64,000 nucleotides of DNA, taken from Lacinutrix sp. C3R15. Its GTDB lineage: Bacteria > Bacteroidota > Bacteroidia > Flavobacteriales > Flavobacteriaceae. The position numbers and the translations under genes were made by a program. Positions 8,557 through 31,885 of this stretch are shown here, piece by piece. How positions within the stretch are numbered: the first letter of the stretch is position 1; every line of letters starts with the position of its first letter. The DNA lies in assembly GCF_018860825.1 (NCBI RefSeq), contig NZ_JAHKPZ010000023.1:62001-126000 (forward strand), read 5' to 3'. The notes under the pieces are model-generated. The model did not search any database, had not been told where the DNA came from, and saw only the letters and a program-made list of their open reading frames with translations.

Positions 8557-8655
8557 GGCGTTACCCTCTTACACTAAAAGTTTCAGAGGGTCAGGCTTTC
8601 CGCTATATCTTTTTGCAGAAAAAGCAAAAAGGATGTCGCTGCAATCCTTAACGCA
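8557..8655 (+). repeat. Dispersed structured element, copy A
   Basis: Closing arms GCGTTA (8558-8563) and TAACGC (8649-8654) enclose three helices: ACCCTCT/AGAGGGT (8563-8569 with 8585-8591), CTTTTTGC/GCAAAAAG, and GGAT/ATCC. Between them is the conserved block GTCAGGCTTT. The same layout occurs at 19043-19169 (copy B) and 31744-31885 (copy C, reverse strand). Copy A ends about 50 bases before ftsY. Function unknown: a structured RNA, or a REP-like mobile repeat. Confidence 0.75.
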
Positions 8656-8707
8656 GAAATAGATGAAGTAACAACTTCATAACTAAATAACAAACAATAA
8701 AATAGGT

Positions 8708-18963: not shown

Positions 18964-19042
18964 AAAAGAAACACTTCGGGTGATTTATTAAGGAACAAAA
19001 AATGTATCTTTAATTAGCCATGTTCAATAAGTTATACTTATT

Positions 19043-19169
19043 TGGGCGTTCCTTTTTGTGCTCCTACAAGGTTAAAAAAAAACCTTGCAGAAGCACAAAA
19101 AGTCAGGCTTTACGTTGCAATCTTTTTTAAGAAAAATAAAAAAGGATTTACACTGCAATCCTTAACGCA
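19043..19169 (+). repeat. Dispersed structured element, copy B
   Basis: Closing arms GCGTT (19046-19050) and AACGC (19164-19168). First hairpin CTTTTTGTGCT (19052-19062) with AGCACAAAAAG (19092-19102), extended by AAGGTT/AACCTT. Then the conserved GTCAGGCTTTACGTTGCAA, a T6/A6 hairpin, and GGATT...AATCC. It ends 22 bases before the LysM gene start. The rest of 18964-19191 shows nothing else. Confidence 0.78.
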
Positions 19170-19191
19170 ATTAAGAACGTATAAATAATAT

Positions 19192-31741: not shown

Positions 31742-31743
31742 TT

Positions 31744-31885
31744 GTGTTAAGGATTGCAATGAAAATCCTTTTTTATTTTTTATAAAAAAGATTGTAATGT
31801 AAAGCCTGACTTTTTGCTATTCTACATGCTTTGTGCCCAACTTGTTTGGGTACCTAAATTATACAATAAGCAAAAAGTAACACCC
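31744..31885 (-). repeat. Dispersed structured element, copy C
   Basis: On the reverse strand: closing arms GTGTTA and TAACAC (plus-strand 31878-31883 and 31744-31749), first hairpin ACTTTTTGCT/AGCAAAAAGT (31869-31878 with 31809-31818), conserved GTCAGGCTTTACATTACAA, a second T6/A6 hairpin, and GGATT...AATCC. The C:G pair of copy A's closing stem is here T:A. It ends 12 bases before the PAP2 gene, in the opposite orientation. Confidence 0.78.

Follow-up and report, generated by a model that had tools for sequence, protein, structure and literature searches.

The window, i.e., the whole 64,000-nucleotide stretch of Lacinutrix sp. C3R15 DNA analysed here, contains three copies (A, B, and C) of a structured intergenic element, all of them flanked by core genes. 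Copy A has rpmB/rpmG-like ORFs on one side and ftsY on the other, copy B is neighboured by guaA and a LysM-domain gene, and copy C by a small acidic ORF and a PAP2 gene. The elements were delimited on the sequence from closing stem to closing stem; the orientation in which the first-pass annotation had read them is called the reader strand, and that of the match to Rfam family Flavo-1 the Rfam strand:

8558-8654, reader strand plus, Rfam strand minus: copy A, Flavo-1 element
8558-8563, plus: 5' arm of the closing stem of copy A (GCGTTA), which pairs with 8649-8654; columns 1-5/130-134 of alignment A2 covary
8563-8590, plus: hairpin H1 of copy A (ACCCTCT...AGAGGGT), read from the sequence and outside the Rfam model, since the cmscan alignment stops short of its far arm
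8649-8654, plus: 3' arm of the closing stem of copy A (TAACGC), read from the sequence
19046-19168, reader strand plus, Rfam strand minus: copy B, Flavo-1 element
31744-31883, reader strand minus, Rfam strand plus: copy C, Flavo-1 element

According to direct reading, the coordinates in the first-pass annotation were off by only a few bases for all three elements, and the pattern it described holds. The blocks GTCAGGCTTT, AAAGGAT...ATCC, and CCTTAACGC are common to the three copies, with CCTTAACAC instead of CCTTAACGC in copy C. The closing stem is GCGTTA/TAACGC in copy A and GTGTTA/TAACAC in copy C, a double change that keeps the pairing; in copy B it consists of five pairs (GCGTT/AACGC). The arms of H1 differ between copies yet pair perfectly in each (ACCCTCT/AGAGGGT in A, CTTTTTGTGCT/AGCACAAAAAG in B, and ACTTTTTGCT/AGCAAAAAGT in C). 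All three copies share one layout: in addition to the closing stem P1, H1, and the block GTCAGGCTTT, it comprises a long hairpin rich in A/T, with ATC and GGAT as its borders, and a terminal CCTTAACGC or CCTTAACAC. A separate terminator-like hairpin is present just upstream of copy A. A second flavobacterial repeat (CACTTCGAGTGATTT...AAATTGTATCGAGAAG) adjoins copy B at 18970-19010 of the window, and the same repeat lies wholly or partly within the central loop of Flavo-1 in relatives (L290, L255, L266, L302, L304).

The three elements are Flavo-1, a motif that Rfam lists without function. A cmscan search of Rfam 15 matched RF01705 (Flavo-1) with 56.9 bits for copy A (8585-8664), 59.3 bits for copy B (19097-19176), and 61.1 bits for copy C (31742-31815), all above the gathering score of 42, with E = 7e-11 to 1e-9 and over the full length of the model (1-76); each match is on the strand opposite to that chosen in the first-pass annotation. 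The earlier note had implied that the element was new, while itself pointing to Rfam and naming Flavo-1; since all three copies match this already described family, the novelty falls away. Previous studies described Flavo-1 without a function (PMC2864571, Weinberg et al. 2010; also PMC9723704) and ranked it among the most abundant sRNA families (PMC9029176).

The number of copies ranges from 0 to more than 100 per genome. The genome of the window has 25 matches, four genomes of the same genus have 41-45 copies (41 in G001 and 45 in G002), 26 of 40 relatives have any, and one genome of the same order carries 106 elements; a full-element model, which is stricter than that of Rfam, finds matches in 35 of 247 genomes from across the phylum, most of them members of the same family. 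The same element is found at the ends of two contigs of the window's own genome (L019 at the end of C1 and L020 at the start of C7), in versions differing in the H1 loop, and seems to have broken the assembly there. No match to copy A was found among plasmids and phages. Seven loci in contigs filed as viral (L200, L201, L203, L208, L212, L214, and L218) contain complete or near-complete Flavo-1-like elements, and are either phage or misfiled bacterial DNA.

The Rfam model of 76 positions stops before the far arm of H1 and overruns the element at the other end; it is truncated, omitting both H1 and P1. A full-element model (R1), built on 41 sequences that include copy A itself, scores copy A at 79 bits over 8558-8654. 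With a structure fixed at 19 pairs, P1 and H1 included, 99.5% of the paired cells in 41 elements from many genera can pair, compared to 91.5% after shuffling and 35-68% when the partners are slid; compensatory double changes occur in 58 cells against a shuffled mean of 13.1, a count reached in none of 500 shuffles. Together with the cmscan E-values, these statistics mean that the resemblance of the three elements is not due to chance. In the same 41 elements, P1 covaries with CG/UA, GC/AU, and UA/GC/AU exchanges, P2 among GC, AU, and CG, and H1 between CG and GC, and the two-pair RY stem has 9-10 double changes per pair. Conserved pairing with covariation is thus also found in the part that defines the family, i.e., in the P2 and RY pairs. 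The RY stem of 137 parsed elements is GC/GC in 67, AC/GT in 26, GT/AC in 26, and AT/AT in 7; variants of P1 include GCGTG/CACGC, GCATT/AATGC, GTGTT/AACAC, and GTAAT/ATTAC. The selection on structure suggested by the first-pass annotation is therefore strongly supported by covariation in the closing stem, the AGG/CCT stem, the RY stem, and H1. On the Rfam strand the element is a closed three-way junction of P1 (GCGTT/AACGC), a long hairpin, and the short and variable H1, in which the long hairpin has two conserved internal loops around the 2-bp RY/RY stem; the whole is best understood as about 75-150 nt long.

Non-Watson-Crick pairs indicate which strand is folded. Over all helices, 69 cells are A.C on the reader strand (G.U on the Rfam strand) and 13 are G.T; 40 of the 43 informative elements lean to the Rfam strand and three the other way (p = 3e-9, an optimistic value because the counted elements are related). 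Strand-symmetric mutation would give G.T and A.C equally, so the one-sided excess means that the fold is selected in a single-stranded Rfam strand, be it RNA or ssDNA. With a cruciform in duplex DNA, the wobbles would be symmetric. A strand-biased mutational process, such as deamination of an exposed strand, could also be a source of the polarity.

Two subtypes were distinguished. Type I, to which the window copies belong, has GCGTT/AACGC feet with TTTGG preceding them; type II has AGC/GCT feet, a T-rich sequence plus AGGAGC before the element, and GGGGCTA at its end, and is dominant in G028, G036, and G291, and one copy of the window's own genome (L001) resembles it. A terminator-like hairpin with a T-tract is located directly upstream of type II in 12 of 20 cases in G028 and G036 (1 of 20 in controls), and terminator-like sequence lies upstream of type I in 10 of 119 (two controls gave 2 and 5). 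For 114 elements with both neighbours identified, the gene pairs are tandem in 82, convergent in 21, and divergent in 11. The constant orientation upstream of genes expected of a cis-regulatory 5' UTR RNA was not found, the Rfam strand being antisense in 49 and sense in 33 of the 82 tandem cases; no partner gene recurs beside the elements in 182 loci. Nor was a promoter of their own detected in 129 elements: the motif TAnnTTTG has no consistent enrichment at a fixed distance, with a slight excess at most (five motifs some 10-20 nt upstream of the 5' end on the Rfam strand). The missing promoter, terminator, and fixed gene orientation argue against a free-standing sRNA, and such a gene, offered in the first-pass annotation as a structured RNA, fits the element poorly. 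Transcriptomics of Flavobacterium psychrophilum agree that Flavo-1 is not an ordinary transcription unit, because its matches lie sense or antisense without preference and many are outside transcribed regions, while several structured 5' transcribed regions do coincide with matches (PMC9723704).

In most genomes of the genus, the sites of copies A, B, and C are occupied by corresponding elements. Mean identity over 39 orthologous pairs is 95% in the core and 71% in the 60-base 3' flank, which is coding sequence at some sites; the core of copy B is 98% identical to its orthologues in G001, G002, and G005, whose 3' flanks are 17-42% identical. H1 changes fast in both length and sequence, as in ACCCTCT...AGAGGGT of copy A versus ACC-TAA-AGGT of its orthologues. 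Copy C is present in G001, G002, G003, and G005 and absent from G006, in which several sites are without an element; G002 keeps a remnant at one site. The cleanest empty site (L258 in G006) can equally be read as a deletion at 2-nt microhomology, and no clear target duplication was seen at the examined empty sites of G006, G002, and the high-copy pair G291/G319, where flanks do not align cleanly. In that pair, 7 of 11 sites have a similar element, one a different element, and three none. Behind guaA, where its close relatives G001 and G005 retain the usual copy B element, G003 carries a different and degenerate one (L067), its central hairpin replaced. One intergenic site in two species of one genus is occupied by clearly different Flavo-1 elements (L441 in G319 and L384 in G291), which suggests replacement at a preferred site. 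Non-orthologous copies within one genus share loop sequence (GCCATATATGGCAGC in L005, with variants in L002 and L003), and this sharing points to copying since the pairing does not require it.

A mobilising enzyme was searched for in several ways. No Y1_Tnp transposase was found in the window's own genome, nor in G001, G002, and G006, although G001 and G002 carry 41 and 45 elements; no Flavo-1 lies within 1.5 kb of any of 30 Y1-transposase loci in relatives, whereas the same search pattern recovers 23 elements in 25 loci of the window's own genome. The feet (GCGTT/AACGC or AGC/GCT) also lack the GT[AG]G tetranucleotide of RAYT-associated REPs. Mobilisation by RAYT was rejected on these tests of the own genome, 40 relatives, and 30 Y1 loci. 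The palindrome flanking the RAYT-like genes of G003 and G005 is another one, GCACGGATTTGCAATCCGTG; these genes (L033 and L034, about 190 codons) lie amid many copies of it and are likely to form a REP/RAYT pair with it. A link to reverse transcriptase was rejected as well, because RVT_1 is absent from the window's own genome and its presence elsewhere has no clear relation to copy number. For lagging-strand insertion, i.e., the bias towards one replication strand expected of single-strand (HUH-type) transposition, the genomes differ: G001 (15-25 of its 41 elements for any origin) and G309 have no bias, and G291 has one (75 of 106, permutation P 0.002) that could be explained by gene orientation. 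In G036, a genome of the same order, different accessory genes (RhuM-like, HNH-like, and unknowns; L330-L336) have their start immediately at the right-hand end of a Flavo-1 element, and several of these genes lie in arrays whose spacers are repeated; about 300 nt of additional sequence is common to several of the elements there, and on contig C23 a stretch of about 16 kb is enclosed by two inverted elements.

We tentatively regard Flavo-1, with somewhat less than even confidence, as a dispersed, non-autonomous repeat that spread in the past and is now mostly fixed and constrained. The copy number, from none to over a hundred, and the loop sequence shared by non-orthologous elements suggest that it has copied itself. 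It would have spread into A/T-rich sites, often behind gene ends, type II landing frequently directly after the T-tract of intrinsic terminators, and what moved was probably the Rfam strand in its folded, single-stranded form, as ssDNA or RNA. In the genus of the window it would now be almost immobile, vertically inherited, and deleted now and then, and purifying selection would maintain it for a cis role of the junction, most likely as a site recognised by a host protein. The hairpin-borne mobile repeat, the other alternative of the first-pass annotation, describes the element better than an RNA gene, with the reservation that no mobilising enzyme was found and that in this genus most copies are fixed at orthologous sites. 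Against the repeat reading it also counts that no insertion was cleanly seen with a target duplication, that conservation in place is stronger than an idle mobile repeat would show, and that G.U tolerance suits a true RNA too.

A functional RNA as filed in Rfam, that is, an sRNA or UTR element made from the Rfam strand whose three-way junction is read by a protein or small molecule, is possible but on the whole unlikely. Covariation, one-sided G.U tolerance, conserved internal loops, strong constraint in place, and the structured 5' regions of F. psychrophilum favour it, but 25-106 copies per genome, the mixed gene orientation, the lack of a fixed-place promoter or noted terminator, and matches that are indiscriminately sense or antisense and often untranscribed (PMC9723704) do not. 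An element acting on transcription at gene ends, as a bidirectional insulator, a 3'-end stabiliser, or a stop for antisense transcripts, would explain why so few elements (11 of 114) lie between divergent genes and why type II abuts terminators; it is nonetheless improbable, considering that the element has no U-tract of its own, that copy A has a separate terminator-like hairpin upstream, and that wobble polarity favours one strand despite mixed gene orientation.

That Flavo-1 is a folded attachment site for a recombinase, like integron attC, is very improbable. The accessory genes of G036, mostly in cassette-like arrays starting at the right end of elements, and the inverted pair around about 16 kb would fit, but were seen in G036 only; the window copies lie between core genes, and the end motifs are oriented opposite to those of attC sites. 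Just slightly less remote than a RAYT-mobilised repeat is a bacterial SINE-like retroposon: a borrowed reverse transcriptase, primed by T-tracts such as those of terminators, would copy structured RNA of the Rfam strand back into DNA. The end of that RNA would be its A-rich side, opposite the T-tract of the target, in agreement with the wobble polarity and with the T-tract found at the 5' edge on the reader strand. We give the least credence to a REP/REPIN mobilised by RAYT (TnpA_REP), e.g., the Bacteroidetes subclass 2.6, for which flanking atypical secondary structures have been reported (PMC6006769). Besides this precedent, the multiple intergenic copies and the single-strand fold agree with it, against which stand the absence of Y1_Tnp from the four genomes named above, the 30 Y1 loci without a nearby element, and the other palindrome beside the RAYTs of the genus.

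Since the Rfam model is truncated, one folded strand is under selection, the element does not behave as a transcription unit, and it is not a RAYT repeat, the question is narrowed to two options, a domesticated mobile repeat or an unusual RNA. The results suggest that Flavo-1 is larger than annotated, a dispersed repeat folding on one strand and not an ordinary small-RNA gene. New here are the full structure, the strand polarity, the lack of a gene signature, the exclusion of RAYT, the conserved core against its flanks, and the second subtype; the full-length model can be used to clean Flavo-1 annotations, which are filed as an RNA gene.

Integron attC sites are imperfect hairpins of variable loop length, with structure conserved over sequence and a strand-specific fold. 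Flavo-1 shares these traits and differs in its end motifs (GTT...AAC, not AAC...GTT) and in the absence of an array around the window copies. REP/REPIN elements with RAYT are likewise short, dispersed, intergenic, folded as a single strand, and present in many copies; Flavo-1 is without a GTAG-type foot or a linked RAYT, and the RAYT of the genus is accompanied by a distinct REP of its own. With intrinsic terminators, which type II abuts, it has in common a hairpin at gene ends, but no U-tract follows its own helices. Like MITEs and other small bacterial mobile sequences (PMC2229807), it is non-autonomous, about 100 bp long, structured, and present in many copies, unlike them in having a covarying strand-polar structure with no target duplication seen and no recognised terminal inverted repeats of a known IS. 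With Flavo-1 as described in Rfam (PMC2864571) the agreement is that all three copies exceed the threshold on the same strand and have the central hairpin, the AGG/CCT and RY/RY pairs, and the conserved internal loops; whereas the Rfam model has 76 positions without H1 and P1 and is typed as an sRNA gene, the element found here gives no hint of a gene of its own, is longer and closed, and occurs in two subtypes.
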